DNA of 36,671 bases from Candidatus Nealsonbacteria bacterium (GTDB lineage: Bacteria > Patescibacteriota > Minisyncoccia > Minisyncoccales > JAGGXC01), in the NCBI GenBank assembly GCA_026396195.1, contig JAPLXH010000005.1, positions 67,710 through 104,380 on the forward strand. The letters run 5' to 3'. The notes beneath the pieces are model-generated. The model was not told the origin of the DNA. It did not search any database and saw nothing but the letters and a program-made list of their open reading frames with translations. Below, one piece after another: positions 1 through 13,285 of the stretch (position 1 is its first letter; every line of letters starts with the position of its first letter). The position numbers were made by a program, and so were the translations under genes.

Positions 1-33
1 ATCTGCCTTTTTTTATTTTAAATCTCCATCCCA

Positions 34-89
34 AAATCGCCTCATCAGCGGTTTTTTAGCTTGACGAAAAATATAATAAAAGATATATT
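34..89 (+). promoter_or_regulatory. Joint element: terminator hairpin plus promoter
   Basis: AAATCGC (34-40) pairs with GCGGTTT (48-54, one wobble) and runs into a T-tract. TTGACG (61-66), a 17-nt spacer and TATATT (84-89) follow. The T-run at 8-14 is probably the tail of the terminator of a gene before the window. This is the first of about twenty similar joints. Confidence 0.65.
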
Positions 90-92
90 ATA

Positions 93-163
93 TTTTACCA
101 GAGAGAGGTTTTGCAGGAAAAATCTTTTTTTCCTCCATATTATCCTCCTCTCTCCTGGTAAAA
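93..163 (+). promoter_or_regulatory. Leader inverted repeat upstream of the first CDS
   Basis: A 16-nt arm at 93-108 is complementary to 147-163 with one bulged base. A second hairpin is nested inside (115-122 with 127-134). CCTCC runs in the loop and right arm could pair with the GGAGG at 170-174. It fills most of the 5' leader, so it may control translation. The minus strand reads an SD and a 16-codon ORF through it (see findings). Confidence 0.5.
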
Positions 164-182
164 TTAAAAGGAGGTTTAGAAG

Positions 183-551
183 TTGGAGAAAATGCAATTG
201 AAAAGTGCGCAACTTGAAAAAGTAAGAAAAGCCTTAGAGCCAGTATTTCAAGAATCTCTTTTGATTGGTTCCGGTTCGGGAACGAATAGGAAGCCAAATG
301 ATGGACTTTCTCTGAGTAATCCCTATTTTGAAGGACCTAACATAGTAATTGCAGACGAAAGAGGTCTCGTGGTGATATCTCAACGCAAAGATGGTGTATT
401 TGAAGTCCAGGATTTTGTTCAAATACTTGTCTACCACAGATTCAATGAGACAAAAATCCCGGATCATACTCAGTTAGGAGAAAAGGTTATAAAGACAATG
501 GAAAGACTAGCAGAAGATGATGAAATTTTTTTCAACACACTTACCCGTTAA
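183..551 (+). CDS. Hypothetical cassette protein, 122 aa
   Basis: I do not recognise the family. The protein is soluble, with a charged helical start and a central region predicted to be beta-rich around IVIADERGLVVISQ. There are no membrane segments and no cysteines. The TTG at 183 is preferred as start because GGAGG at 170-174 lies 8 nt upstream; the in-frame ATG at 192 would be 17 nt away. It is a single-gene unit with its own promoter (61-89), a long structured leader and a terminator that begins right after the stop codon. Confidence 0.7.
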   Translation: MEKMQLKSAQLEKVRKALEPVFQESLLIGSGSGTNRKPNDGLSLSNPYFEGPNIVIADERGLVVISQRKDGVFEVQDFVQILVYHRFNETKIPDHTQLGEKVIKTMERLAEDDEIFFNTLTR

Positions 552-576
552 AGAGTCTAAATTGAGACTCTTTTTT
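552..576 (+). terminator. Intrinsic terminator
   Basis: AGAGTCT (552-558) and AGACTCT (565-571) form a perfect 7-bp stem with a 6-nt loop. Ts follow. It begins immediately after the TAA stop. Confidence 0.9.
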
Positions 577-582
577 ATTTAC

Positions 583-625
583 TCCGCTAAGCGGCGGTTG
601 ACAAACCGGTTATTCAGAGTAAAAA
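583..625 (+). promoter_or_regulatory. Joint element and promoter of the deformylase gene
   Basis: A small hairpin CCGC-taa-GCGG (583-593) is followed by TTGACA (598-603), a 16-nt spacer and TAAAAA (620-625). Predicted +1 is about 632, one base before GGAGG at 633-637. Confidence 0.7.
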
Positions 626-643
626 TAATAAAGGAGGTAAATT

Positions 644-1201
644 ATGGTTAAATTATTAAAAATAGCTGAGTTAGGAGAAGAAGTATTGTTCCGAAAAGCA
701 AAGCCAGTGAAAGACGTGAATGATCTTGAAATTCAGGAATTGATCGATGATATGATCGCTACGCTGAAACACGATAATGGAGTGGGATTAGCTGCTCCCC
801 AAGTTTTTCAGTCCTTAAGGATTATCATTGTTTGGTCATATCCAAATCCAAGATACCCGGACGCGCCCGAATTTGGTCCCATTGCGATAATAAATCCAGA
901 AATTACTGTTCTTTCAGAAGAAAAAGAAAAAGGATGGGAAGGTTGTTTGAGTATCCCAGGGATTAGAGGCCAGGTTTCTCGTTACAAATCAATAAAGGTA
1001 AACTTTATAACTAGAAAAGGAGCCAGACAGGAAGCGACTTTTAATGGTTTTGTGGCCAGAATTATTCAACACGAAGAAGATCATTTAAATGGTAAATTAT
1101 GCTTTTTAAATGTGAATGAAGACATAAAAGACCTTGCAACTGATAAAATCTGGCAAAAACAGATGACTGAAAAATGGCAAAAAGAAAAAAGCAAGAAATA
1201 A
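644..1201 (+). CDS. def: Peptide deformylase
   Basis: A metallohydrolase that removes the N-formyl group from nascent proteins. All three family motifs are present: GVGLAAPQV near residues 46-54, EGCLSIPG near 104-111 with the metal-ligand Cys, and QHEEDHLNG near 145-153 with the two His ligands and the catalytic Glu. Length 185 aa is normal for the family. GGAGG at 633-637 fixes the ATG start. It is odd that this gene sits alone as one cassette in an array of tiny unknown genes rather than next to fmt. It could be the housekeeping copy or an accessory, phage-style second copy; the window cannot decide. Confidence 0.95.
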   Translation: MVKLLKIAELGEEVLFRKAKPVKDVNDLEIQELIDDMIATLKHDNGVGLAAPQVFQSLRIIIVWSYPNPRYPDAPEFGPIAIINPEITVLSEEKEKGWEGCLSIPGIRGQVSRYKSIKVNFITRKGARQEATFNGFVARIIQHEEDHLNGKLCFLNVNEDIKDLATDKIWQKQMTEKWQKEKSKK

Positions 1202-1216
1202 ATAAATTTATAATAT

Positions 1217-1248
1217 GCTCAAAACTTTAATAGTTTTCGAGCTTTTTT
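1217..1248 (+). terminator. Intrinsic terminator after def
   Basis: GCTCAAAACT (1217-1226) pairs with AGTTTTCGAGC (1232-1242), with one bulged C. A T-run follows. Confidence 0.85.
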
Positions 1249-1270
1249 ATTTCAGAAATTTCCCATCCCA

Positions 1271-1325
1271 AAATCGCCTAAAGAGCGATTTTTTGGTTTG
1301 ACAGTAAAGATAATATTATTAAGAT
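1271..1325 (+). promoter_or_regulatory. Joint element and promoter
   Basis: AAATCGC (1271-1277) pairs with GCGATTT (1285-1291). The T-tract merges with TTGACA (1298-1303), followed by a 16-nt spacer and TAAGAT (1320-1325). The leader has a hairpin, GTTCCTTA (1333-1340) with TAAGGGAAC (1349-1357). A leader with the same TTTAGTTCC..TACAATT sequence occurs near 13289-13306. Confidence 0.65.
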
Positions 1326-1377
1326 AAGTTTAGTTCCTTACAATTGAATAAGGGAACGAAAAGGACGAGTGGTAAAA

Positions 1378-1512
1378 ATGAAAAAAGAAGAATTTGTTGG
1401 AATAGCTGAAATGTTCATAGAATCATGTGAAGATGATGGTGTAAAAGAATTTTCTACTAAGATTAAAAGCCCGAGAGGAAATGAATGGAAAATATTAGTA
1501 ACTCGGTACTAG
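1378..1512 (+). CDS. Small hypothetical protein, 44 aa
   Basis: An ORF starting MKKEEFVGIAEMF and ending WKILVTRY, with stop TAG at 1510-1512. It is acidic with no recognised domain. A weak AAGGA (1361-1365) lies 12 nt before the ATG. It is probably co-transcribed with the next gene, whose SD begins 2 nt after this stop. Small size makes it less certain, but promoter, leader and tight coupling support it. Confidence 0.6.
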   Translation: MKKEEFVGIAEMFIESCEDDGVKEFSTKIKSPRGNEWKILVTRY

Positions 1513-1524
1513 AGGAGGTGGAAA

Positions 1525-1872
1525 ATGCAACTCATAAAAGATGATATAAAAACCTATCATATATGTGATTACTGTGGTACATTATTCCCATTAAACGCAG
1601 AAGGTAATTTATGTTCAGTATGTGAAATTGGTCATACATCTAAGACAATAACCGTTATCAACTTAGACAAACTCCAGCAAGTCGTAGAGTTCTATGAGAA
1701 ATATAAATATACATATTCAGATGAAGAATCTGTTTCTGAATGTCTTAATAAATTAAAAACAGAACAACCCAAGGTATTTGAAAAATGGAAGAAAGAAACA
1801 GATTATAATGATTCAATGATGAGCTTTAATGATTGGTTCTTCAACTACTGTTTCAAGGATGGATTCAAATAA
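1525..1872 (+). CDS. Zinc-ribbon-like hypothetical protein, 115 aa
   Basis: Residues 14-33 contain two CxxC knuckles (CDYC and CSVC) separated by about 13 residues, as in a short zinc ribbon. The rest is helical and charged with several Trp and Tyr. The family is not recognised. GGAGG (1514-1518) 6 nt upstream supports the ATG. It forms a two-gene unit with the 44-aa ORF before it. Confidence 0.75.
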   Translation: MQLIKDDIKTYHICDYCGTLFPLNAEGNLCSVCEIGHTSKTITVINLDKLQQVVEFYEKYKYTYSDEESVSECLNKLKTEQPKVFEKWKKETDYNDSMMSFNDWFFNYCFKDGFK

Positions 1873-1875
1873 ATT

Positions 1876-1900
1876 AGCTCACTTTGTGAGCTTCTTTTTT
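1876..1900 (+). terminator. Intrinsic terminator
   Basis: AGCTCAC (1876-1882) and GTGAGCT (1886-1892) form a 7-bp stem with a 3-nt loop. A T-rich tail follows. Confidence 0.88.
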
Positions 1901-1910
1901 ACTAAAGAAT

Positions 1911-1968
1911 TAGCCGCTTTTTAATAAAGCGGCTTTTGGTTTGACAAATTGGTGAGTTGTTATAAGCT
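1911..1968 (+). promoter_or_regulatory. Joint element and promoter
   Basis: TAGCCGCTTT pairs with AAAGCGGCT (stem within 1912-1934). After T-rich sequence come TTGACA (1941-1946), a 16-nt spacer and TAAGCT (1963-1968). GGAGG is at 1975-1979, the predicted +1. Confidence 0.72.
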
Positions 1969-1988
1969 ATGGAAGGAGGTATTTGGAA

Positions 1989-2462
1989 ATGAGTCCATCA
2001 AATAGTTCGTTAATAAAATATTTAATTGGAGTGGCTTTGATATCAGCTGTCATAATAATGCTTATGCCGAAAAGACCAGAAACAAACGATCTAACAGTTA
2101 TAATAATGGATATGGCAGAAAGAGGTCTTATTCTTTTGATCGCTGGGATAGGATTTTATTTTGCAAGAAAATCAGCAAAAGAATTCGCCCGAAAAGAATA
2201 CGAAAATAAACCATTTGAGTTTGAATCTCTAGAATTGTGGAAGCCATATACAGTGCTTGCAATGGCAAGATTAAAATCATACACTCTTTTTAATTTAGGG
2301 CCTGTGCATAAAAAACCAGAAGACATAGATTTTACAGAGAAAGTTATCTACATTAGGGTGTGGAACGAACATCTACCTAAAAACATAGAACAGGGTAGTA
2401 TTATATGCCGGGAAAAGTACGACAAGATTTGCATTCACAAGGAGAATACCCAAGAAAATTAA
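1989..2462 (+). CDS. Membrane-anchored hypothetical protein, 157 aa
   Basis: Two predicted N-terminal transmembrane helices (about residues 8-26 and 46-60) precede a soluble domain of about 95 residues rich in charged and aromatic residues. The family is not recognised. The ATG at 1989 lies 9 nt after GGAGG (1975-1979). An in-frame TTG at 1983 is only 3 nt from the SD and less likely. A 7-codon ORF at 1969-1992 ends in a TGA that overlaps this ATG. Confidence 0.75.
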   Translation: MSPSNSSLIKYLIGVALISAVIIMLMPKRPETNDLTVIIMDMAERGLILLIAGIGFYFARKSAKEFARKEYENKPFEFESLELWKPYTVLAMARLKSYTLFNLGPVHKKPEDIDFTEKVIYIRVWNEHLPKNIEQGSIICREKYDKICIHKENTQEN

Positions 2463-2471
2463 AAAATGTCC

Positions 2472-2510
2472 ACCTGCTTAGCTTTTTTTAAAGTTTTGCA
2501 GGTTTTTTTA
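2472..2510 (+). terminator. Intrinsic terminator
   Basis: ACCTGC (2472-2477) pairs with GCAGGT (2498-2503). A/T pairs extend the stem inward and a T-run follows. Confidence 0.8.
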
Positions 2511-2558
2511 TTTTAGAAAATAGGGGATTGGGCGGAAGTGAGCTTGCCGAAAGGCTCG

Positions 2559-2577
2559 TCCTGAGTCCGTCGAAGGA
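2559..2577 (+). repeat. Dispersed repeat, CTGAG..CGTCGAAG family
   Basis: TCCTGAGTCCGTCGAAGGA is a 19-nt imperfect palindrome. Related copies lie at 9037-9051, 10203-10217, 11175-11194, 11411-11427 and 29111-29127. Confidence 0.8.
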
Positions 2578-2599
2578 TTTGAATTTTTTAGGAAATAAA

Positions 2600-2621
2600 A
2601 AACTGGTTTTGAAACCAGTTT
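2600..2621. terminator. Terminator of the minus-strand CPBP gene
   Basis: AAACTGGTTT (2600-2609) and AAACCAGTTT (2612-2621) form a perfect 10-bp stem. On the minus strand it overlaps the stop codon and is followed by T6. Confidence 0.88.
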
Positions 2622-3132
2622 AAGATTTTTTTGTATAGATTATTAAAAAGCTTACGAAAACAGCGAAACTGTTCAGCATTGCATGCAATATCATTGCGGC
2701 AAGAAGAGAATTCGTCAAAATTACTAGTATCCCCAAAAGAATACCTAAAAATGCAGTTACAATTATTGTTTTAATTATACGTATTCTATTGGGAAGTATC
2801 TTCCATCTGTTCTTGTCTATTATTATTCCATGAGGCACTCCAAAGATAATTCCGCTCCAAAATAGCACCATTAGTAAGCTAGTTAGAGAAAGCCCCTTGA
2901 AAAACCAGAAAATTGGACCTCTGAAAAAAAGTTCTTCTAAAAGAGGAGCTAAAATTATTACTTCAAGTACATGAAGAACAGTGAAATTAGACTTTATTTT
3001 TTCCTCTCCTTTTGCACCACATTTATCAGCGATAATGCCAATAAAAATATTTATTCCTACTCCTGCTATAAAGAAAAGCACTATTAACCGCCAAATTTCA
3101 ATCGTTAATGGGCCAAACCAAGTTTCAATCAA
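2620..3132 (-). CDS. CPBP-family intramembrane metalloprotease
   Basis: A polytopic membrane protein of 170 aa with the CPBP/Abi family motifs: EELFFRG near residues 65-71 (EExxxR), a conserved His in FGVPHG near 97-102, and HAMLN near 150-154 (HxxxN). Known members are CAAX-prenyl-protease-like or bacteriocin self-immunity proteins. The substrate cannot be read from the sequence. The start is TTG, 8 nt after GGAGG on the minus strand. It is one of only two minus-strand genes seen. Confidence 0.9.
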   Translation of the reverse strand: MIETWFGPLTIEIWRLIVLFFIAGVGINIFIGIIADKCGAKGEEKIKSNFTVLHVLEVIILAPLLEELFFRGPIFWFFKGLSLTSLLMVLFWSGIIFGVPHGIIIDKNRWKILPNRIRIIKTIIVTAFLGILLGILVILTNSLLAAMILHAMLNSFAVFVSFLIIYTKKS

Positions 3133-3160
3133 TTTTTAACCCTCCACTAAACTATTTGAT

Positions 3161-3187
3161 ACTATAAAAAAAATATTATTTAGTCAA
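3161..3187 (-). promoter_or_regulatory. Promoter of the CPBP gene
   Basis: On the minus strand: TTGACT (3182-3187), a 16-nt spacer and TATAGT (3161-3166). It is divergent from the promoter at 3209-3236. Confidence 0.7.
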
Positions 3188-3208
3188 CTTTAAGCGGGTA
3201 AATTTTTA

Positions 3209-3236
3209 TTGACAAATAAGTTGTTTAAGATAAAAA
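3209..3236 (+). promoter_or_regulatory. Cassette promoter
   Basis: TTGACA (3209-3214), a 16-nt spacer and TAAAAA (3231-3236). GGAGG at 3243-3247 starts at the predicted +1. Confidence 0.72.
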
Positions 3237-3253
3237 GATAGAGGAGGTAAATT

Positions 3254-3514
3254 ATGGAAGAAGGATGGGTCAAATGGGATATACCTATTTACGGCTCTAC
3301 CGTTAAATGTTATATTCCTAAGTTGACCAAAGAAGAAAATAAAGTTATTTTCGAATGGTTAATGGAAAAGTTTATAGACAGAAAAGGTTATAGAAGGGAC
3401 GACGACATAATTTCTTTTAATTGTTCAGGAGCCGGAAGCAGAGTAAATGAATTGGCTACGCAAGTAAAGAATATGTTTGAAGGATTTATTTTGTGTCGTT
3501 CCCTTTATAAATAA
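3254..3514 (+). CDS. Hypothetical cassette protein, 86 aa
   Basis: A small soluble protein with two Cys residues (FNCSGAG and ILCRSLY) and a helical middle (EENKVIFEWLMEKFIDRKG). No family recognised. The ATG lies 6 nt after GGAGG (3243-3247). It is a single-gene unit bounded by its own promoter and terminator. Confidence 0.7.
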   Translation: MEEGWVKWDIPIYGSTVKCYIPKLTKEENKVIFEWLMEKFIDRKGYRRDDDIISFNCSGAGSRVNELATQVKNMFEGFILCRSLYK

Positions 3515-3538
3515 TTTTTTTGAAATAATTTTCTAAAT

Positions 3539-3572
3539 GCGGTGGCATAAAAATATTATCACCGCTTTTTTA
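3539..3572 (+). terminator. Intrinsic terminator
   Basis: GCGGTG (3539-3544) pairs with CACCGC (3560-3565). A T6 run follows. Confidence 0.85.
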
Positions 3573-3578
3573 TTTTTT

Positions 3579-3619
3579 CGCTCAGCGGGATTTGACAAAT
3601 AATCAGTTTAGGGTAAAAA
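3579..3619 (+). promoter_or_regulatory. Joint element and promoter
   Basis: A small CGCTcAGCG hairpin lies just before TTGACA (3592-3597). A 16-nt spacer and TAAAAA (3614-3619) follow. GGAGG at 3626-3630 starts at the predicted +1. Confidence 0.7.
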
Positions 3620-3637
3620 GATGAAGGAGGCTAAAAA

Positions 3638-3814
3638 ATGGAAGAAGATTTATGTGACAGTTGCGGGAATTTTGATTGGGACTGCGATTGTTGCAGTAAA
3701 GGACATGACGAAGAAATAATCCAAAATCTTAGTAAAGGTGGAATAAAAAATTGCGTAGATTATTTTAAAGTAAAAAAACATAAATTTTATTTAAAAGGTT
3801 ATATTATTAAATAG
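3638..3814 (+). CDS. Cys-rich small protein, 58 aa
   Basis: An ORF starting MEEDLCDSCGNFDWDC with five Cys in the first 19 residues (C6, C9, C16, C18, C19), probably metal binding. The remainder is basic and Lys-rich. The ATG lies 7 nt after GGAGG (3626-3630). The TAG stop overlaps the terminator stem. Another frame over the same DNA encodes a membrane-like peptide, but its ATG lies upstream of the predicted +1. Confidence 0.7.
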   Translation: MEEDLCDSCGNFDWDCDCCSKGHDEEIIQNLSKGGIKNCVDYFKVKKHKFYLKGYIIK

Positions 3815-3839
3815 AGGTAAAATTTAAACCTCTTTTTTT
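3813..3839 (+). terminator. Intrinsic terminator overlapping the stop codon
   Basis: AGAGGT (3813-3818) pairs with ACCTCT (3828-3833), followed by T7. The first arm includes two bases of the TAG stop. Confidence 0.85.
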
Positions 3840-3840
3840 A

Positions 3841-3904
3841 TTCGGGCAATCTATGAACGAGGAATTAGTGTTTTTGTTTGACAAAATTATTATAAAATAT
3901 AAAC
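3841..3904 (+). promoter_or_regulatory. Short dispersed repeat plus promoter
   Basis: TTCGGGCAATCTATGAA (3841-3857) recurs at 4159-4175 and in variant form at 13175-13190, each time just after a terminator T-tract. TTGACA (3878-3883) and TATAAA (3899-3904) form the promoter of the next gene. Confidence 0.6.
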
Positions 3905-3927
3905 ATTAGATAAGGAGGAAATCAAGA

Positions 3928-4110
3928 ATGGTACAAGCATATATTTGGCCGGTGATTGGAATTGTCTTAGTACTAGGAATAATTTATACGGTAGCAGGAA
4001 TATACATGCGTTTGAATAAGAAAAAAAAGATTTTAACCACCATAGCACTTTTTATCACAGGAATATCGCTCATCATTATATCCGTAGTAACAATCCTGAT
4101 ATCTATTTAA
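3928..4110 (+). CDS. Small two-helix membrane protein, 60 aa
   Basis: Two hydrophobic helices (about residues 6-28 and 36-59) flank a basic RLNKKKK loop, predicting a hairpin membrane protein with the loop in the cytoplasm. No family recognised. GGAGG (3914-3918) lies 9 nt before the ATG. Confidence 0.7.
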   Translation: MVQAYIWPVIGIVLVLGIIYTVAGIYMRLNKKKKILTTIALFITGISLIIISVVTILISI

Positions 4111-4121
4111 AAATAATATAC

Positions 4122-4158
4122 GCACCGAAAGTCAAATGACAATTAGGTGCTTTTTTTA
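4122..4158 (+). terminator. Intrinsic terminator
   Basis: GCACC (4122-4126) pairs with GGTGC (4146-4150), with an inner GTCA/TGAC stem. T7 follows. Confidence 0.8.
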
Positions 4159-4175
4159 TTCGGGCAATCTATGAA
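4159..4175 (+). repeat. Second copy of the TTCGGGCAATCTATGAA repeat
   Basis: Identical over 17 nt to 3841-3857 and similar beyond it (GGGGAGTTA versus GAGGAATTA). It lies directly after a terminator. Confidence 0.75.
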
Positions 4176-4236
4176 TGGGGAGTTATTTTTGATAGAATAA
4201 GATTAGTAAATTAAAAAAATAACAAAGGCGAAATGA

Positions 4237-4395
4237 ATGACAATGTTTATTAAAATCGGGCATTTTCCAACAATAGTTATACCTCTGAAAAACGGTATAT
4301 ATGTTTATAGCTTTAGAAAAGCATATTGGGATAAAAAAGAGCTTGATTATTTGCGTAAATGGAAAGAAGAATGGGGAAGAGGAAACAATTTTTAA
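4237..4395 (+). CDS. Small hypothetical protein, 52 aa
   Basis: An ORF starting MTMFIKIGHFPTIVIPLKNG and ending EEWGRGNNF, aromatic and basic. Family unknown. The SD is weak (AAAGG at 4224-4228, 8 nt upstream). A possible promoter is TTGATA (4189-4194) with an A-rich -10 region. A strong terminator 6 nt after the stop supports a real unit. Confidence 0.6.
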   Translation: MTMFIKIGHFPTIVIPLKNGIYVYSFRKAYWDKKELDYLRKWKEEWGRGNNF

Positions 4396-4400
4396 TCATT

Positions 4401-4422
4401 GAGGCGAACACGCCTCTTTTTT
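4401..4422 (+). terminator. Intrinsic terminator
   Basis: GAGGCG (4401-4406), loop AACA and CGCCTC (4411-4416), followed by T6. Confidence 0.9.
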
Positions 4423-4440
4423 ATTTGAAAAATTTTATTA

Positions 4441-4496
4441 TTGACTTTTTTCTATCAAAGTATAAATTTACAAAAGAGGGAAAATAGTTCTTTCCC
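4441..4496 (+). promoter_or_regulatory. Promoter and leader hairpin
   Basis: TTGACT (4441-4446) is followed after 14-16 nt by TATAAATT. A leader hairpin (GGGAAA pairing with TTTCCC, within 4478-4496) lies immediately before the AAGGAGG SD. Confidence 0.55.
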
Positions 4497-4511
4497 AAGG
4501 AGGATATAAAA

Positions 4512-4784
4512 ATGGTACTTAACCCAATAACAAAAAGGGTAGAAAAAGATCCGGTAAAGTTTACCAAAGGAAAGCATACGGTCAGCATTCAGTCGTATCA
4601 TAGCGGATTTGTGGCTTATCTTCCGCATCCGGGTTGCGGGCTTTGCGGTGGAGATCTCCGGGGATTGGGAGTTGCTTTAATTGAAGCAGCTACTCGCGTT
4701 GATTATTTAAACAGACTACACGAAGATGGAAAGATGAAAAGCATTGATTTTCCTGGAGAGGAAATTCCCGTTAAATCCATATAG
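4512..4784 (+). CDS. Hypothetical protein with a CxxC loop, 90 aa
   Basis: The central motif HPGCGLCGGDLRGLG (near residues 36-50) has a CxxC pair with a nearby His, so it may bind metal or be redox active. The N-terminal half looks beta-rich and the C-terminal half helical. No family recognised. GGAGG ends about 8 nt before the ATG. Confidence 0.7.
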   Translation: MVLNPITKRVEKDPVKFTKGKHTVSIQSYHSGFVAYLPHPGCGLCGGDLRGLGVALIEAATRVDYLNRLHEDGKMKSIDFPGEEIPVKSI

Positions 4785-4802
4785 CTACGAGATATTAAAA
4801 AT

Positions 4803-4841
4803 AACAGGTCAAAAGATAAATTTTTTGCACCTGTTTTTTAT
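4803..4841 (+). terminator. Intrinsic terminator
   Basis: AACAGGT (4803-4809) pairs with ACCTGTT (4829-4835). T-rich tail. Confidence 0.82.
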
Positions 4842-4870
4842 TTGAAAAACTACTTAGAGAAGCGGTTTTT

Positions 4871-4898
4871 TTGACAAATGAATTTTTTATGATAGGCT
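4871..4898 (+). promoter_or_regulatory. Cassette promoter
   Basis: TTGACA (4871-4876) directly follows a T-run after AGCGG. A 16-nt spacer and TAGGCT (4893-4898) follow. GGAGG at 4906-4910 is one base after the predicted +1. Confidence 0.65.
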
Positions 4899-4918
4899 TT
4901 TTTTAGGAGGGTTAGCTC

Positions 4919-5278
4919 ATGAAAATTAAATATGAATGCGAGGTGTGTGGTTTACAATCCGACAATAAAGAAGAGATTGAAAAACACGAAGCCCAAGGAA
5001 GGCCGGCTACCAAGTTTTCGCCTAAAGAAAAAGTGGAATTTTTGCGCCGGGGACTAAATGAAGAAATGATATGGGCAAAAGGAATAATACTAAGAATAGA
5101 TTTTATGAAAAATCATCTTTACACTTATACCGTTGTAACTGACCACGAAGAAAAATTAATTTCTCACGATATGAATTTGTATCGTATGTTTCCCGAGCAA
5201 CGAGGATATGAAGAGCATCAAAGCACCGCAGCACAAATCATGGTTTTTGAAGAAAACATCCGTCCCAGAGGAGTCTGA
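4919..5278 (+). CDS. Zinc-finger-like hypothetical protein, 119 aa
   Basis: The N-terminus reads YECEVCGLQSDNKEEIEKHE, a CxxC-x12-H spacing like a C2H2-type finger. The remaining 90 residues include an aromatic segment around residues 60-75 and an acidic C-terminus. No family recognised. GGAGG (4906-4910) fixes the ATG. The TGA stop lies inside the terminator palindrome. Confidence 0.75.
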   Translation: MKIKYECEVCGLQSDNKEEIEKHEAQGRPATKFSPKEKVEFLRRGLNEEMIWAKGIILRIDFMKNHLYTYTVVTDHEEKLISHDMNLYRMFPEQRGYEEHQSTAAQIMVFEENIRPRGV

Positions 5279-5325
5279 ATATTCAGACTCTTTTTTATTG
5301 ACAAATCGATGAGTTGGAGTAAAAA
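5271..5325 (+). promoter_or_regulatory. Terminator fused to the next promoter
   Basis: GAGTCTGAAT (5271-5280) and ATTCAGACTC (5281-5290) form a perfect palindrome containing the stop codon. Its T-tract continues directly into TTGACA (5298-5303), a 16-nt spacer and TAAAAA (5320-5325). GGAGG at 5332-5336 starts at the predicted +1. This is the tightest terminator-promoter joint in the window. Confidence 0.82.
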
Positions 5326-5344
5326 GATGAAGGAGGTTGAAAAA

Positions 5345-5923
5345 GTGGAAAGTTTAAAAATTAAAAATCCCGCAATGGGAGCAAAGATATTATTTGATAT
5401 GGGCAGAGCAGATCAATTAGAAAAAGGGATGTTAATCGATGAAATTCTCGCTCTATTTATTCAGTCAAAGCTTAAAGAAGAAATAAAAAATACAATACAG
5501 GAATTACACGAAAAAGGACTTATTCGCTTTAGATCCGGGAATATTATTCTTACGTCGGAAGGCTATGATCTGATACAAGAAGAACAAAGAAAAGCAGACG
5601 AAGAAATGAAAAGACGTACAAAAAAGATTGGATTGAGCGTTAGCCGTTGCGTAGCAGATATTTGCATGGGCAATGTAAAAATTGAAGATGTATCAAAGAT
5701 TATCGGCGGAACAGCATGCAAAGATGAAGAAGATTGGAACGGAGCAATTGACCTGTATAAAAGAAGTATCTGGAGCGAGTTTCCGGAAAAAGCCGAAGAA
5801 GCAATCAGAAAAATGATTGCCGAAAAACGAATTGAACAGCCAAGATTAGAAAGAAAACCGCATCCTAATATTAAATATGGGATTTGGGTTACAGACGAAA
5901 AAGAAATTCTTTGGAAGCCTTAA
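5345..5923 (+). CDS. Hypothetical protein with a winged-helix-like N-terminus, 192 aa
   Basis: Residues about 20-70 look like a winged helix (IKNTIQELHEKGLIRFRSGN.. followed by LTSEGYDLI). A long charged helix follows, then a C-terminal region ending GIWVTDEKEILWKP. A regulatory role is only an inference. The GTG at 5345 is the start because GGAGG (5332-5336) is 8 nt upstream. An in-frame ATG at 5309 lies inside the promoter and cannot be used if the predicted +1 is right. Confidence 0.7.
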   Translation: MESLKIKNPAMGAKILFDMGRADQLEKGMLIDEILALFIQSKLKEEIKNTIQELHEKGLIRFRSGNIILTSEGYDLIQEEQRKADEEMKRRTKKIGLSVSRCVADICMGNVKIEDVSKIIGGTACKDEEDWNGAIDLYKRSIWSEFPEKAEEAIRKMIAEKRIEQPRLERKPHPNIKYGIWVTDEKEILWKP

Positions 5924-5942
5924 AAGAAAAATAATATATTGT

Positions 5943-6024
5943 CCGTTCGTATATTCAATGAACGGGCTTTTTTTATTTACCCCGCCAAGCGGGGTTTGAA
6001 AAATTTTCAAAATAGCGGTAAAGT
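5943..6024 (+). promoter_or_regulatory. Terminator, joint hairpin and promoter
   Basis: CCGTTC (5943-5948) and GAACGG (5960-5965) with T7 terminate the previous gene. CCCCGC-caa-GCGGGG (5980-5994) is the joint hairpin. TTGAAA (5996-6001), a 17-nt spacer and TAAAGT (6019-6024) form the next promoter. The promoter at 6775-6803 is nearly the same. Confidence 0.75.
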
Positions 6025-6035
6025 AAGGGAAAATT

Positions 6036-6719
6036 ATGCAAAAAGAAGCTAAGGAAAAAATTAAAAATCTTAAATCTTTAGTTAATTTCAAAAATGAGCT
6101 TAAGGAAACTCGTACACTTATACATGCTCTTGAAACGCAGGTTATTGCAACTAAAGAATTCTTGAAAGTTACTAAGGCAAAAGAGAAGCCTGGATATGAA
6201 AAATTTCAGAAATTTTTAGAAATTACCGACAAGCAAATCGCTAAACTACACGAATTAGGCTTTGTAGCGCTTTTTGCAAACTTCGAGTGTTTCATGTTTG
6301 AGTTTTTAAAAGATCTTTTCAGAAGACATACTCACTCCTTTCAATCAGATAAAATAGCAAAATTCGAAGATATTAAAGACTTTAAAACCGTCAAAGAAGT
6401 CAAGGAATATTTTATAGACTCTTTTGCTATTGAAAAATCATACGACATCGAAACATGGACAAGTTTCCTTAATCAGCGCTTTGGCATAATTATATTTAAG
6501 AACAGAAAAGACTTGCTTCGCTTTAAAGCACTTAATTCTATTAGGAACTTAATACTGCACTCAGGGAGTAAAACTAATGTAAAATTTAGGAACGAAATGA
6601 GAAATTTACTGAAGACGCCTGTTCCTATAGGCAAGCCCTTTAAATTAGACATGAAAAGGTATTTCGTTGTTTTACATAGTTGTTTACAGATATTAATTAA
6701 AAATATTGAAAAGAGTTAG
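6036..6719 (+). CDS. HEPN-domain protein (putative ribonuclease), 227 aa
   Basis: An all-helical protein with an N-terminal coiled coil (about residues 5-60). Near residues 167-176 it reads NSIRNLILHSG, matching the Rx4-6H motif of HEPN ribonucleases (Arg, four residues, His). The layout resembles MAE_28990/RiboL-PSP-HEPN-type proteins, which are linked to defence or toxin systems. AAGGGA lies 5 nt before the ATG, but the predicted +1 (6031) would leave it outside the mRNA. No obvious antitoxin is adjacent. HEPN assignment is by motif and helical context only. Confidence 0.7.
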   Translation: MQKEAKEKIKNLKSLVNFKNELKETRTLIHALETQVIATKEFLKVTKAKEKPGYEKFQKFLEITDKQIAKLHELGFVALFANFECFMFEFLKDLFRRHTHSFQSDKIAKFEDIKDFKTVKEVKEYFIDSFAIEKSYDIETWTSFLNQRFGIIIFKNRKDLLRFKALNSIRNLILHSGSKTNVKFRNEMRNLLKTPVPIGKPFKLDMKRYFVVLHSCLQILIKNIEKS

Positions 6720-6748
6720 CGAGCGAAACGCGTCAGTGGAGAAATCTG

Positions 6749-6803
6749 AAATCGCTTAAGGGGCGGTTTTTAGTTTGAAAAATCTTTAAAATAGCGGTAT
6801 GGT
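6749..6803 (+). promoter_or_regulatory. Joint element and promoter
   Basis: AAATCGC (6749-6755) pairs with GCGGTTT (6763-6769, one wobble) and runs into Ts. TTGAAA (6775-6780), a 17-nt spacer ending AATAGCGG and TATGGT (6798-6803) follow. The spacer end matches the promoter at 5996. Confidence 0.65.
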
Positions 6804-6889
6804 GAAGGAAAGAAAAATATGCAAGATATAAAAATTATTGAAAAAAATAATTAACAAGTAAAATCTGTTTGGAAATTAAAAAATTTAAT

Positions 6890-7375
6890 ATGGGAAAATT
6901 TAATTTCAAAAACGAAGACGATTTTCAAAAAATAAAAAGTGAAGCCGAAGAATTTTATGGCACAATCAATGATATTTATTGTCCTTATTTAAAAGAAAAA
7001 ATCGCTTTTAATGTAAAGGGATTAAAACATTTAAAATTTATTTCGGATAGACAAGCTAGGCCAAGAAAAGATCAATATTCAAGACTGAAACTTATTCGTT
7101 TTGCTCCAGAAGTTTTAAAATTATCTCATACTTTACAAGGAATCTGGCGCATAAAAAGGTTTGAATCACAAAAAACAAACAGCAGATGGGAACAAGTCTT
7201 GAAAGACGTAATATATTATGAATTTATCGCAGTTATAGAAAACATAAGAATAAAAGTTATTATTAAAGAAGTTTTGGGAGGAGAAAAACATTTTTGGAGT
7301 ATTATTCCTTTTTGGGGAATTGACAAAATGACAAGCAAGAGAATTTTACATGGTGGCGATCCAGAAATTGACTAA
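6890..7375 (+). CDS. Conserved hypothetical protein, about 161 aa
   Basis: A basic protein with an invariant-looking core (IYCPYLKEKIAFNVKGLKHL) near residues 25-45 and a C-terminal SIIPFWGIDK..LHGGDPE. It resembles unnamed proteins I associate with CPR genomes; a toxin- or nuclease-like fold is possible but unproven. The start is uncertain: ATG 6890 is chosen, while TTG 6869 would add 7 residues, and neither has an SD. An 11-codon ORF (6819-6854) precedes it on the same transcript and might couple translation, or mark a frameshifted original start. Confidence 0.65.
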   Translation: MGKFNFKNEDDFQKIKSEAEEFYGTINDIYCPYLKEKIAFNVKGLKHLKFISDRQARPRKDQYSRLKLIRFAPEVLKLSHTLQGIWRIKRFESQKTNSRWEQVLKDVIYYEFIAVIENIRIKVIIKEVLGGEKHFWSIIPFWGIDKMTSKRILHGGDPEID

Positions 7376-7382
7376 ACTAAAA

Positions 7383-7410
7383 AATACCGTTTTTTTCGGT
7401 ATTCTTTAGT
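7383..7410 (+). terminator. Weak intrinsic terminator
   Basis: AATACCG (7383-7389) and CGGTATT (7397-7403) form a 7-bp stem. Only a short, interrupted T-tract follows. Confidence 0.6.
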
Positions 7411-7467
7411 GGTACTTGGGTACAGCTTGGATATAGCCGTGACAGGGCCAAGGCCCTCCAAGCACCA
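7411..7467 (+). other. Structured non-coding stretch ending in GCACCA
   Basis: The 7376-7613 gap holds no gene. GTAC-ttgg-GTAC (7412-7423) is followed by GCTTGGA (7425-7431) pairing with TCCAAGC (7457-7463). Inside it is AGGGCC (7444-7449) with GGCCCT (7452-7457). ACCA follows the closing stem as in a tRNA acceptor end. There is no T-arm or anticodon arm, so it is not a tRNA. Confidence 0.4.
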
Positions 7468-7579
7468 ATTTCAATATAACACAAAACATTATGTCAATCA
7501 AGATTTATCCCCAAGTATCTTTGTAAATAAAAAAGCGGTGTTTGGGTCTGAAATACTCAACTTAATCTTATAATATTTA

Positions 7580-7619
7580 CTCCATAGATAGAATTCCTAC
7601 TGGAATTCTATCTATGGAG
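7580..7619. repeat. Perfect 18-bp inverted repeat spanning a start codon
   Basis: CTCCATAGATAGAATTCC (7580-7597), loop TACT, then its exact complement (7602-7619). The ATG of the next gene (7614-7616) lies inside the right arm. TATAAT at 7569-7574 predicts a +1 near 7581, so the mRNA would start with this hairpin. Confidence 0.9.
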
Positions 7620-8288
7620 ACCATTATTGTCAATACCAAAACAACGATTTGTAAAAATAAAACAAATTTTGAAACGGTTTCAGTAAATGATTTATTAGAA
7701 AATATGAGCATTTTAATTAGATATATTATAGCACAAAAAAGCAAAAAAATAAAGAAAAATAAACCGAAATTAATAATAAATATGGACTATAAAAAGTATT
7801 ATGATTTAGAAAATTATTTATTCGGAGAGGTAAAAAATAATTTTAAAAAACATGGCTATTTAACGCCAGAAGAATTTTTCTGTATCGTTATTTGGAAAGC
7901 AAATAGAGCAAAAAGCAAAATAAAAGATAAAATTTTTAAAAAAGGAGAAAATTTAAATAAAAGTATTAAAAAATTAACTAGTCAAATTTTTAAAGCATCG
8001 AGCAATAAAGAAAAATTAAGAATTTTATTAGAAGATTGGGAATTTGGTCTTCCCATGGCTTCAGCTTTATTAACGGTTTTGTATCCTAAAAATTTTACAA
8101 TTTATGATGTAAGAGTTAGAAATCAGTTTGGCATAAAAGATTTTTCCGGTAGAAAAAATCAAATTGAAAAGTATTTTTCAGAATTTCTACCTAAAGTGAA
8201 AAAACAGTCGGGTAAAAATTTGAGAGAAAAAGATAAGTATTTATGGGGGAAGTCTTTTTTTGAAGACCTTAGGAAATTTTTAAAATAA
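7614..8288 (+). CDS. Helix-hairpin-helix-like hypothetical protein, 224 aa
   Basis: A very Lys-rich helical protein. The region FGLPMASALLTVLYPKNFTIYDVRV (two blocks near residues 144-168) resembles the HhH core of DNA-glycosylase-like proteins, in which a GxG/P turn is followed by a helix and then a conserved Asp. Catalytic residues cannot be confirmed. The start is unusual, buried in the perfect inverted repeat at 7580-7619 with no SD. The next in-frame Met is about 30 residues on. It heads a likely three-gene unit with 8298 and 8662. Confidence 0.6.
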   Translation: METIIVNTKTTICKNKTNFETVSVNDLLENMSILIRYIIAQKSKKIKKNKPKLIINMDYKKYYDLENYLFGEVKNNFKKHGYLTPEEFFCIVIWKANRAKSKIKDKIFKKGENLNKSIKKLTSQIFKASSNKEKLRILLEDWEFGLPMASALLTVLYPKNFTIYDVRVRNQFGIKDFSGRKNQIEKYFSEFLPKVKKQSGKNLREKDKYLWGKSFFEDLRKFLK

Positions 8289-8297
8289 CTAAAATTT

Positions 8298-8621
8298 ATG
8301 TCAGAAGAAATAAAAAAAATATCAGATTCTGAATTAGTTAATAAGGCTGAACGTGGTTACAAAGATATTGCTTACGCAGAACTTATTAGAAGATTAATAG
8401 TGGCACTTAACAATTCAAGTAAAAGCTCAGAAGAATACAGCAAGAGAAATTTAATTCTTTCTGTTGCCTTATTTTTTATTGGATATATGCAGTTAATAAC
8501 AACGATTATTACAAGTCAAATTTCTAATTTTAATAAGATTGCTTTATTTACAATTATTATAATTTCTATTTATTTTGTGGTTAATTGGCTGCTTAAAAGC
8601 GAACGTGAAATTAAATTATAA
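8298..8621 (+). CDS. Small membrane protein, 107 aa
   Basis: A charged N-terminal half (about 50 residues, helical) is followed by two transmembrane helices (about 51-72 and 79-98). The N-terminus (ISDSELVNKAERGY.. AELIRRLI) resembles the charged heads of small CPR membrane proteins, but the family is unknown. It starts 9 nt after the preceding stop without an SD, so it is probably co-transcribed. Confidence 0.65.
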   Translation: MSEEIKKISDSELVNKAERGYKDIAYAELIRRLIVALNNSSKSSEEYSKRNLILSVALFFIGYMQLITTIITSQISNFNKIALFTIIIISIYFVVNWLLKSEREIKL

Positions 8622-8661
8622 AAAATAACTAAGGGCAGGAATTTAGCTCGATTTTAAAAAT

Positions 8662-9027
8662 ATGCATCAATTAACTCTTTTTGAAGCGTTTTTTATAACC
8701 CATTTCGTAATGGATTGGATTTTTCAATGGAAATGGGAGGCAATGAACAAATCAAAAAATATTTTTGCTTTATTCTTCCATTGTGCCGTTTATACGGTGG
8801 GGTTTATTCCCGTATTTTCGTTATACAAAATTAATTTTTTATGGTTGTTATTAATTTTCATTAGTCATTTTATCTTTGATAAAAGAAATTTTGAGGTTTG
8901 GATTTTAGAAAAATTCAAAGGGTTTAAAAAAGAAGGGGACTTAGAGCCATTTTGGAATATTGTATTAATCGGAGTTGATCAAACGCTTCATTTAGTCATT
9001 TTATCCTTTATTGTTATTTTTTCTTAA
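8662..9027 (+). CDS. DUF3307-like membrane protein, 121 aa
   Basis: Three to four transmembrane segments. HFVMDWIFQ near residues 14-22, an FHCAVYT block and the C-terminal DQTLHLVIL match my memory of the DUF3307 family, whose function is unknown. No SD. It lies 40 nt after the previous gene in the same orientation. Confidence 0.7.
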   Translation: MHQLTLFEAFFITHFVMDWIFQWKWEAMNKSKNIFALFFHCAVYTVGFIPVFSLYKINFLWLLLIFISHFIFDKRNFEVWILEKFKGFKKEGDLEPFWNIVLIGVDQTLHLVILSFIVIFS

Positions 9028-9036
9028 AACTTAGTA

Positions 9037-9051
9037 CTTCGACGGGCTCAG
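9037..9051 (-). repeat. Dispersed repeat, CTGAG..CGTCGAAG family
   Basis: CTTCGACGGGCTCAG is the reverse complement of the repeat core. CTTCGACCTGAAG follows at about 9055-9067, a partial second copy. Confidence 0.75.
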
Positions 9052-9087
9052 TATCTTCGACCTGAAGTTAAAAATCGACGCGTAAAA

Positions 9088-9124
9088 TAAAAAATCGCCT
9101 CAGAAATTTATCTTCATCGGCGAT
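9088..9124 (-). terminator. Terminator of the minus-strand gene
   Basis: ATCGCC (9094-9099) pairs with GGCGAT (9119-9124). On the minus strand a T6 run follows. It uses the same ATCGCC/GGCGAT stem as the plus-strand joint elements. Confidence 0.8.
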
Positions 9125-9133
9125 ATTATTTTT

Positions 9134-9646
9134 TTATCCATATAGGAAGTCGTCTTTGTGTTTTACGCCCGCTTGTTCTTTAATTTGATTGATATCGGAT
9201 TGAAAAGTATTTCTTTCTTCCTGCTCGATTTGGATTGCTATGTGTGTAATATTCCGCATTGCCACTTTGCCCATTACATACCATTTTTTGACAATTTCCG
9301 GCGGTTCCGGCCATAAAGATTCTGGCATTTGATTTAATTTTTTGAGATCAAGCGTGGAAAAGTGATTAATTAATTCTTCAATTTCCGTGTCATTGAGCTT
9401 TATTTGCGCAATCCTACTTAGTTCTTTATAGAAAGAATTAAAAACTCTGTCATAGATTTTTTTCTGCATTTCAATGTGCCGGATCGTTATTTTTCGATTT
9501 AAATCGGCAATGGGATTTGCAGCAGCTAATTCATTATTATATTCCGGAAGAACGCTAATAATCTCATCGTAATTCTCGGTTCCTTCGAATATTTTGTTTC
9601 TTACAACTTCAATCAAACTATCTAACTTTTTCTGGTCTATAGGCAT
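9134..9646 (-). CDS. Hypothetical helical protein, 170 aa
   Basis: A soluble, almost fully helical protein with acidic and basic heptad-like stretches and a WPEPPEIVKKWYVMGK segment near residues 107-122. No domain recognised. GGAGG on the minus strand, 7 nt before the ATG, supports the start. It has its own promoter (9667-9694) divergent from the next plus-strand gene. Confidence 0.75.
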   Translation of the reverse strand: MPIDQKKLDSLIEVVRNKIFEGTENYDEIISVLPEYNNELAAANPIADLNRKITIRHIEMQKKIYDRVFNSFYKELSRIAQIKLNDTEIEELINHFSTLDLKKLNQMPESLWPEPPEIVKKWYVMGKVAMRNITHIAIQIEQEERNTFQSDINQIKEQAGVKHKDDFLYG

Positions 9647-9666
9647 TTACACACCTCCAGCATCAA

Positions 9667-9694
9667 AGTATAATATTTACCAATTTTTTGTCAA
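9667..9694 (-). promoter_or_regulatory. Minus-strand cassette promoter
   Basis: On the minus strand: TTGACA (9689-9694), a 16-nt spacer and TATACT (9667-9672), with GGAGG 8 nt further. The geometry is close to that of the plus-strand cassettes. Confidence 0.75.
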
Positions 9695-9733
9695 TTAATA
9701 TTACAATGAATTCCGGCGGTTTTTTGGTAACTA

Positions 9734-9761
9734 TTGACAAATTATATAATTAGTATATAAT
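9734..9761 (+). promoter_or_regulatory. Promoter with consensus hexamers
   Basis: TTGACA (9734-9739), a 16-nt spacer and TATAAT (9756-9761). Upstream is a half joint (GGCGG plus T-run, 9715-9726) without its left arm. Confidence 0.8.
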
Positions 9762-9780
9762 TTATAAAGGTGAATTAAGT

Positions 9781-10206
9781 ATGGTGGTCTTTAACAAAGC
9801 GCAAATAAGATGTTTTAGCAAAATCGAAGAAAAACCTCTCTCCATTTATGAAATTGTGGAAAGGATAAACGCAGATGGTATGAGCTTGGTATCGAGCACT
9901 CATATATATTTTACTTCCATAATAAACTTTGAACGTTTAGGCTTGGTAAAAGTAAAATATAAAAATAATGACAACGACGTACTTTCTAGAAGCCACTATA
10001 AAAATATGATGTGCCGATTAACAGAAAAAGGAAAAGCGATAAAACAAGCAACAGATAAGGTTTATCCAACAATTAAAAAACTGGACGAGCAGGTAGAAAA
10101 CCTACACGAGGAAATATATTTAATTTATAAAAAATTTGATAAAAAAATTAAAACATATTTCCTCTTTTTTTTAATCGCCAAGCGGGCGGTTTTTTGTTTG
10201 CGCTGA
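9781..10206 (+). CDS. Winged-helix-like protein running through its terminator, 141 aa
   Basis: The N-terminal 90 residues look like a winged helix-turn-helix: IYEIVERINADG, then INFERLGLVKVKY, then CRLTEKGKAI. A coiled coil follows. The last about 15 residues are encoded by the terminator T-tract and joint hairpin, which is abnormal. Both other frames have stops near 10119-10132, so a one-base shift would give a normal end before the terminator. It may be a frameshifted gene or a sequence error, or a non-stop message if termination occurs at about 10172. SD-like AAAGGTGAA precedes the ATG. Confidence 0.6.
   Translation: MVVFNKAQIRCFSKIEEKPLSIYEIVERINADGMSLVSSTHIYFTSIINFERLGLVKVKYKNNDNDVLSRSHYKNMMCRLTEKGKAIKQATDKVYPTIKKLDEQVENLHEEIYLIYKKFDKKIKTYFLFFLIAKRAVFCLR
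10108..10172 (+). terminator. Terminator inside the 9781 reading frame
   Basis: GAGGAAATAT (10108-10117) and ATATTTCCTC (10155-10164) form a perfect 10-bp stem with a long A/T-rich loop. T8 follows. Confidence 0.75.
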
Positions 10207-10358
10207 GCCGGCCGAAGCGTTTACGCTGAGTAGTTCGATTATTAACTCACTACCTAACGGCTTTTCGAAGTGGTCCTCCCTCGCTTCCCGATAAATCGGG
10301 ATTTCATCCCAAAGCGGTTGGGATTCAACTTGAGAGCTACGGACGGACAAAGTATAAT
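10173..10358 (+). repeat. Joint hairpin and composite repeat block with promoter
   Basis: No gene is seen in 10207-10403. AATCGCC (10173-10179) with GGCGGTT (10185-10191) is the joint hairpin. CTGAGCCGGCCGAAG follows (10203-10217), then CCCGATAAATCGGG (10287-10300), then TTGAGA (10330-10335), a 17-nt spacer and TATAAT (10353-10358). The block recurs in altered form at 13577-13726 and 29105-29170, and its last part supplies the promoter of the next gene. Confidence 0.75.
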
Positions 10359-10403
10359 AAATTAAGTCGAAAAAATTATAATTAAACAAAAAAAATTTAA
10401 ATT

Positions 10404-10730
10404 ATGCCAAGTTTAATTTATATACTTTTAGCCGGGTTTGTCGGCGGGATAATGCGAGGTTTGGTAGGGTATATCAAATATCGCAGTTCTTATAAAGATA
10501 TTGCGTTTAAGAAAGGCTATTTTTCATCTATGGTGGCAATTTCCGGCGCCGTGGGATTAATGGCTGCCTGGGTAACCCAGGATTTAGGCATTAAATTTTT
10601 GGGACTGCCAACTATCACTCCAGCTATAGCTATAATTATTGGTTATGCCGGAGGAGATTTCATTGAAAATATTTTCAAGATTTTAACCGGCAAAACCTCG
10701 CTTTATCAAATGCCAACTATTAAAAAATAG
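10404..10730 (+). CDS. Small membrane protein, holin-like layout, 108 aa
   Basis: Three predicted transmembrane helices (about 4-22, 42-60, 68-90), Gly-rich, with GYAGGDFIENIFKIL near residues 80-94 and a basic C-terminus. The size and helix layout resemble holin-type or other small CPR membrane proteins; function is not established. It has no SD. Transcription is probably driven by the repeat-borne promoter at 10330-10358. Confidence 0.65.
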   Translation: MPSLIYILLAGFVGGIMRGLVGYIKYRSSYKDIAFKKGYFSSMVAISGAVGLMAAWVTQDLGIKFLGLPTITPAIAIIIGYAGGDFIENIFKILTGKTSLYQMPTIKK

Positions 10731-10764
10731 TTTTTACTCATAAATTTTTCGGCGGATTACTAAA

Positions 10765-11148: not shown

Positions 11149-11166
11149 CATTTTCACTAAGAAAAA

Positions 11167-11248
11167 ATCGCTAATCCTTCGGGGGTACTCAGGACAGGGA
11201 GGCGGTTTTTTGGTTAGCTATTGACAAACTTTATAGATATGCTATTAT
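11167..11248 (+). promoter_or_regulatory. Joint terminator with repeat in its loop, plus promoter
   Basis: AATCGC (starting 11166) and GGCGGTTTTTT (starting 11201) form a joint hairpin. Its loop contains a copy of the dispersed repeat in reverse orientation (11175-11194). TTGACA (11221-11226), a 16-nt spacer and TATTAT (11243-11248) follow. Confidence 0.7.
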
Positions 11249-11254
11249 TCTAGT

Positions 11255-11380
11255 AGTCCTTTAGTATTTCTCAATACTCTATTGTCCGAATGCACAATAG
11301 AGAACAAGGCATACTTTTAACGCTGCAATATAATATCGCCCCAAAAAATATTAAATTATTTAAGGGGCTCATCTTTTTTT
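11255..11380 (+). ncRNA. Candidate structured RNA, about 125 nt
   Basis: Bounded by a strong promoter and an intrinsic terminator, with no convincing ORF. Internal stems: GTATT/AATAC (near 11263-11276), a perfect 9-bp CTCTATTGT/ACAATAGAG stem (near 11277-11302) and the terminator GCCCC (11338-11342) with GGGGC (11364-11368) plus T7. It matches no RNA family I know. Confidence 0.55.
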
Positions 11381-11434: not shown

Positions 11435-11442
11435 AAAATAAT

Positions 11443-12084: not shown

Positions 12085-12169
12085 AATTATCCAAAATAAT
12101 TTTTTAGATATTATAAAGTTTATAATTAGATTCTTAAAGGTCGATTAAAAAATTAATTTTATTATTTCA

Positions 12170-13117: not shown

Positions 13118-13139
13118 AAAAGAATAAATTTAAGAGCGA

Positions 13140-13174: not shown

Positions 13175-13285
13175 TCATCCAATCTATGAATAAGAAGCTA
13201 ATATTTTAAAAATCGCCAACTTGAGCGCCTGCCTGCCGGGAGGCAGGGTTTTTTGGCTTGACAAGGAGATTAATATTATTAATAT
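13175..13285 (+). promoter_or_regulatory. Repeat, terminator with inserted palindrome, and promoter
   Basis: CATCCAATCTATGAA is a variant of the 3841/4159 repeat. AAATCGCC (from 13210) starts a joint whose stem is replaced by the palindrome CCTGCCT/AGGCAGG followed by T6. TTGACA (13258-13263), a 16-nt spacer and TAATAT (13280-13285) follow. The leader resembles that at 1320-1347. Confidence 0.65.

Follow-up and report, generated by a model that had tools for sequence, protein, structure and literature searches.

An array of short genes at the start of the DNA analysed here bears on how the very small genomes of the candidate phyla radiation (CPR) gain accessory genes and put them to the test. 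The window, i.e., the whole stretch of 36,671 nucleotides (G000:C5:67710-104380), belongs to a genome of 792,064 bp in 13 contigs (98.7% complete) from the Patescibacteria order including Candidatus Nealsonbacteria, and the genome was covered by genome searches and by stretches at matches, array neighbours, and contig ends. Positions 1-6030 carry small genes in units whose boundaries fuse the terminator of one unit to the promoter of the next, and we favour, with moderate confidence, the explanation that these are insulated single-gene units in which recombination at the fused seams occasionally moves whole units.

In positions 1-6030, no fewer than 12 units were read on the forward strand and one on the reverse, built from a -35-like element, a Shine-Dalgarno (SD) sequence in most cases, one or two short open reading frames (ORFs), and a hairpin terminator. 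The -35-like starts followed by a short ORF lie at 61, 598, 1298, 1941, 3209, 3592, 3878, 4441, 4871, 5298, and 5996, with the variants TTGACA, TTGACG, TTGACT, and TTGAAA in addition to one TAGAAT-type promoter, and a start with only a -10 element lies near 4188. All forward ORFs in 1-6030 have a hairpin terminator of their own downstream, and just 20-97 nt separate an ORF stop from the next TTGA. Terminator-like sites in positions 1-15000 numbered 27, compared with 8.8 expected from shuffled sequence (about threefold), and the hairpins tested folded better than shuffles with z of about -2 to -5.8, except for the CCGC hairpin at 584-597 (z -1.5). The unit layout is real and reaches beyond the window. 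The features read are as follows.

33..56, plus strand: joint hairpin AAAATCGCC/GCGGTTTT with T tract, running into TTGACG at 61; about 65 bp of this joint recurs at 84-90% identity at C5:66031 and C5:66528 (upstream of the window) and at 1243-1303
61..551, plus strand: unit 1, with promoter 61-89, long leader hairpin 92-163, SD, and ORF 183-551 (122 amino acids, unknown)
550..573, plus strand: terminator of unit 1
584..597, plus strand: joint hairpin CCGC/GCGG adjoining TTGACA, folding weakly better than shuffles
598..1247, plus strand: unit 2, with promoter 598, ORF 644-1201 (peptide deformylase), and terminator at about 1217-1247
1243..1297, plus strand: joint hairpin AAAATCGCC/GCGATTTT running into TTTGACA
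1298..1892, plus strand: unit 3, with promoter 1298, ORFs 1369-1512 and 1525-1872 (zinc-ribbon-like CxxC), and terminator 1876-1892
1912..1940, plus strand: joint hairpin AGCCGCTTT/AAAGCGGCT adjoining TTTGACA
1941..2510, plus strand: unit 4, with promoter 1941, ORF 1983-2462 (membrane protein), and terminator at about 2465-2508
2600..3187, minus strand: reverse unit, with promoter from 3187, ORF 3132-2620 (CAAX protease-like), and terminator 2621-2600
3209..3570, plus strand: unit 5, with promoter 3209, no second hairpin before it, ORF 3254-3514, and terminator at about 3539-3570
3591..3838, plus strand: unit 6, with promoter 3592, ORF 3638-3814 (58 amino acids), and terminator 3816-3838
3840..3877, plus strand: type-B joint beginning CGGGCAATCTATGAA, no hairpin, recurring at 4158-4186
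3878..4157, plus strand: unit 7, with promoter 3878, ORF 3928-4110, and a GCACC...AGGTGC terminator
4188..4422, plus strand: unit 8, with TAGAAT-type promoter, ORF 4237-4395, and terminator 4401-4416
4441..4842, plus strand: unit 9, with promoter TTGACT at 4441, ORF 4512-4784, and terminator
4871..5297, plus strand: unit 10, with promoter 4871, ORF 4919-5278, and terminator hairpin GGAGTCTG/CAGACTCT adjoining the next TTGACA
5298..5972, plus strand: unit 11, with promoter 5298, ORF 5345-5923, and terminator 5941-5967
5979..5995, plus strand: joint hairpin ACCCCGC/GCGGGGT adjoining TTGAAA
5996..6719, plus strand: unit 12, with TTGAAA promoter at 5996 and ORF 6036-6719
6749..6775, plus strand: joint hairpin AAATCGCTT/GGGCGGTTT running into TTGAAA at 6775
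11166..11226, plus strand: joint hairpin with a loop insert, then TTGACA at 11221
13210..13263, plus strand: joint hairpin with a GCCTGCC palindrome insert, then TTGACA at 13258, similar to one on C7
22292..22314, plus strand: AATCGCC/GGCGATT hairpin followed by GGTAGAAT, no TTGACA

These features partly confirm the layout described in the initial annotation. Its eleven or more units on one plan were found, each forward unit with its own terminator, whereas the second hairpin (AATCGCC type or a CCGC/GCGG variant) that it placed at every joint occurs at only about half of the boundaries in 1-6030, being clear before 61, 598, 1298, 1941, and 5996, weak before 3592, and absent before 3209, 3878, 4188, 4441, 4871 (where just the GCGGTTTTTT half is present), and 5298, where TTGACA directly adjoins the terminator of the preceding gene. 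Of eight further joints that it listed (6749, 10173, 11166, 11381, 13210, 13552, 14775, and 22288), all have a hairpin, but only those at 6749, 11166, and 13210 run into TTGACA or TTGAAA, the other five (10173, 11381, 13552, 14775, and 22288) running into other repeats or TAGAAT-type promoters. The terminator T-tract fused to TTGACA is the constant feature of the boundary.

Similar promoter-SD-ORF-terminator units, about 30-45 in total, lie in clusters on at least seven contigs of the genome. The pattern TTGACA...GGAGG...ATG occurred 36 times in the genome, whereas its reversed control occurred twice; the clusters of this pattern are on C1, C5, C7, C8, C10, C11, and C13. The T-tract-TTGACA-SD pattern was counted 54 times here (inflated because overlapping matches were counted) versus 0-5 times in most relatives, with scattered, unrelated promoters in the two next-highest genomes. 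A hairpin with T-tract adjoined the -35 element in 28 of 50 SD-bearing TTGAC(A/T) units, compared with 41 of 264 other TTGAC(A/T) sites (Fisher p 6e-9) and 77 of 1500 random positions (~5%; p 1e-21). In addition, joints were slightly more similar within than between contigs, a small excess that was reached by 53 of 2000 permutations and is not used as main evidence. The joint hairpin also occurs in other genomes: the pattern ATCGC...GCGRTTTTT...TTGAC was present in 18 of 100 relatives, which belong to many families, whereas its reversed control was never matched, so that the AATCGCC/GGCGGTT hairpin is an order-wide terminator repeat. Its strict joint form matched six times in a search of 85,000 species, with Patescibacteria accounting for five of the six, and had no match in IMG/VR; single genes with an SD often come next to these matches. 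The hairpin also adjoins tRNA genes.

About three traceable events bear on whether whole units are copied and re-joined at these boundaries. First, one unit encoding a 100-amino-acid protein is present at both C13:5846-6290 and C7:1160-1606 with 92% nucleotide identity, and the alignment begins exactly where the joint hairpin does and stops where the terminator T-tract ends, the flanking DNA being unrelated on either side. Second, the sequence left of the joint of this unit (C13:5669-5859) is 86% identical to C9:5536-5735, and the match stops inside the joint hairpin arm, after which a different promoter and gene follow on C9; as its left part is C9-like and its right part C7-like, the C13 joint is a mosaic seam. 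Third, C1 and C7 start with an identical 141 bp of one unit and split exactly upstream of TTTGACA, and a comparison of 25 contig ends gave no other fork of this kind; whether this one reflects two copies or strain variation, one unit has two left neighbours joined at the seam. Overlaps of 141 bp between C4 and C7, C10 and C12, and C4 and C6 come simply from the assembler and were left out of the event count. As a separate observation, xseA occurs twice with 85% identity, at window positions 35545-36564 (end of C5) and at L023:7421-8440 (end of C8), possibly reflecting a related strain in the assembly.

Under the explanation favoured here, the units are self-contained, insulated transcription units of one gene (sometimes two), packed head to tail, in which the terminator of one unit is joined via its T-tract to the -35 element of the next, such that each unit would be transcribed alone and would be independent of its position. 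The boundary is often the AATCGCC/GGCGGTT terminator repeat dispersed in the order, and the repeated seams and promoters would provide short homologies for ordinary, most likely RecA-dependent, recombination that occasionally duplicates, joins, or replaces units while leaving the neighbours unharmed, similar to the role proposed for the promoter early stem-loop (PeSL) of T4-like phages. DNA uptake possibly precedes recombination, and transformation would be a plausible route because competence, DNA uptake, and transformation occur in Patescibacteria (PMC10633639). The sequence itself shows the layout, the enrichment, the repeat, and about three events that break at the joint, whereas recombination at the joint as their cause, the enzyme, and a selective benefit are what we infer.

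In favour of this explanation, besides the three events, are the adjoining hairpins of 28 of 50 units and the counts of the SD-bearing TTGACA patterns. Also in its favour, 105 end points of repeats with at least 80% identity lay no more than 15 bp from a T-tract/TTGAC junction, compared with 22 expected, a 4.7-fold enrichment that is inflated because the promoters themselves are repeated. Against it, the events number only about three, all within one assembly, and the C1/C7 fork could equally come from two copies or from strain variation. Its 141 bp match the overlaps seen where other contigs of the assembly end. Moreover, several boundaries are without a joint hairpin. Finally, unit 6 (3591-3837) has an 80% paralogue at C10:42291-42536 that matches from promoter to terminator only, with unrelated flanks, which agrees with the explanation, but for paralogues of 80% or less, conserved promoter-to-terminator function alone would give identical limits.

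This last point leads to the main rival, namely that the arrays are plain compact transcription units, tightly packed in one regulon with a common operator or sigma factor, and that duplications are of the ordinary kind, their visible ends being functional limits; we regard it as possible but rather unlikely. The unit promoters have TTGACAAATTAGTGATTTAAAGTAAAAAGATAGAGGAGG in common, and their spacer is conserved beyond the -35 and -10 elements, as expected for an operator. Among 247 genomes of the order, only this one has the promoter type, its strict form occurring six times here and in none of the 246 others. The promoter family is specific to this lineage. Most paralogues are also old (64-80%), consistent with the same rival. 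What compact units leave unexplained is the abrupt end of the 92% copy at the joint hairpin and T-tract, the left half of the C13 joint matching a third locus (C9), and the C1/C7 fork exactly at TTTGACA; these three observations, few as they are, speak against functional limits and a regulon as the whole story. With regard to the promoter itself, the shared form (e.g., window 3209, 3592, and 5298) combines the conserved spacer with a weak -10 element (TAAAAA), which may indicate an activator, an operator, or an unusual sigma factor. The congeneric pair G043/G245 was considered as a second array case for its promising count, but its promoters were scattered and unrelated, and no arrays were present.

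An improbable alternative is that the joint hairpin is a mobile or hitchhiking repeat, similar to repetitive extragenic palindromic (REP) sequences or miniature inverted-repeat transposable elements (MITE), inserted behind terminators where it adds termination, while the units themselves rarely move. In line with a mobile hairpin, AATCGCC-type hairpins occur at ~30 places, many without TTGACA. In some relatives and on other contigs, moreover, a longer intergenic repeat that begins AACAGGTTCTAAC has the joint hairpin as its 3' end, and loop inserts such as GCCTGCCTGCCGGCAGGCAGG occur. Against it, no target duplications were seen, the identical seam occurs in units without the hairpin, and the hairpin travels with the gene in the 92% pair.

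The longer repeat itself, AACAGGTTCTAAC(G/A)TCGTCCAAGCCCCGCAGC...AATCGCC...GGCGGTTTTTTG, is dispersed in several Patescibacteria families (L093, L095, L100, L079, L084, L069, L063, and L046), and its GTCCAAGCCCCGCAGC looks like the 3' end of the tRNA gene at the start of C13. Nested palindromic loop inserts in the joint hairpins comprise GCCTGCCTGCCGGCAGGCAGG and CTCCTTCACTAAAGTTACGGACGGACAAAGGG (window 13220-13250; L061 about 281-330 and 2755-2790, minus strand).

A phage, plasmid, or integron cassette region, as small unknown ORFs, the cassette-like array, and the moron-like promoter-ORF-terminator layout might suggest, is very unlikely, given that the joint had no IMG/VR match, two unit proteins had no relatives on viral contigs and one more no phage match, positions 1-6030 had no plasmid match, 10 proteins gave no clear PHROG hits, and the arrays sit amid cellular genes (dnaJ and the peptide deformylase gene) with a promoter for each unit. 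Among the proteins tested, none pointed to a phage, a plasmid, or a defence function, apart from weak winged-helix-like matches for 5309-5923 (the unit 11 protein). Base composition gave no clear signal of foreign origin either, the array genes having a GC content of 34.0% compared with 36.2% in the other window genes. Pfam assigned a function to only two array genes, and Rfam had no match in the window.

When the DNA of positions 1-6800 was searched against 100 relatives, all matches were short and most fell in the joint or a terminator, so that no aligned arrays resulted. The array is absent 3' of dnaJ in both same-family genomes, where unrelated genes lie, and therefore no empty site could be aligned. 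The unit gene tested has a patchy distribution, being found in 7 of 247 genomes of the order and in neither of the two same-family genomes; its homologue in Nealsonbacteria likewise forms a unit of one gene, preceded by an AATCGCC joint and TTGACA.

Further details were noted within individual units. Long leader hairpins lie right before the SD or start in three units (window 92-163; L021:19540-19633; L065, minus strand, ~2310-2240), and in two of the three the CCTCC strand could pair with the SD GGAGG, which suggests a translational switch. The cold-shock-like unit at 21895-22267, upstream of the hairpin at 22292, has an 80% paralogue on C6 (window 21893-22156 vs L062:1-267), with similarity starting at TTGACA. 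In addition, an unusual terminator, GCACCGAA(C/A)(G/A)TCA...TGAC...TAGGTGC (window 4119-4157; L004 and L015), is common to two other families (G048 and G078).

The mobility at joints proposed in the initial annotation is partly supported: whole-unit copying and re-joining in about three cases, the enriched repeat ends, and the patchy unit gene agree with it, and an integron-type mechanism does not fit. This limited direct support hints at simple gene swapping in tiny genomes. It is a tentative, rather doubtful suggestion that the array represents a chromosomal, Patescibacteria-type system of gene cassettes that has no recombinase of its own and uses the seams as standard recombination points for the gain, duplication, and re-ordering of whole units. 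If the seams are the usual break points, a simple and testable rule of insulated gene units recombining at seams would emerge, the PeSL idea would be carried over from phages to the chromosome of a bacterium, and expression units that can be stacked would have a natural design to follow. The AATCGCC joint could serve as a marker for such loci in other CPR genomes.

Several known systems resemble the array in part. A phage moron consists of one gene, flanked by a promoter and a terminator that serve it alone, placed between other genes, and each unit here is built likewise, whereas the array comprises dozens of units that share a seam and lie head to tail in a cellular genome, at no phage or prophage location. 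Integron gene cassettes also form arrays of small units with repeated boundary elements, but they lack promoters of their own and end in attC, whereas here each unit has its own -35 element and SD, the boundary is a terminator, and the hairpin sequence is variable. No integrase was seen among the ORFs read near the arrays, no genome-wide recombinase search having been made, and no attC-type constant site was seen at the boundaries, to which no attC model was applied; with a promoter in every unit, the comparison with integrons drawn in the initial annotation does not hold as a mechanism.

Correia-type elements are dispersed intergenic repeats. REP sequences are likewise dispersed intergenic repeats (PMC3733652). 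Both resemble the joint as short intergenic palindromes able to terminate transcription or to harbor a promoter, and the joint differs in its stem sequence and its fixed position before the -35 element. Compared with REP sequences and their associated transposases (RAYT), the stem AATCGCC/GGCGATT shows no obvious GTAG/CGTC tag, no dedicated tag test having been made. The closest precedent is the PeSL (Arbiol 2010 and Comeau 2014, cited in PMC4503421), which, as outlined in PMC4503421, is a stem-loop terminator with a promoter between small ORFs, repeated in the genome and proposed to enable modular shuffling. The array shares with it a terminator stem-loop and promoter in one compact repeated motif, and differs in its location in a bacterial chromosome (dnaJ, deformylase), its host-type TTGACA promoter, its many stem sequences, and its lack of phage genes. 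In PeSL-type shuffling, break points between related genomes would be expected at the motif, and the three events within this assembly fit such an expectation. The array probably works like the PeSL, and is not a member of it because it lies in a bacterial chromosome.

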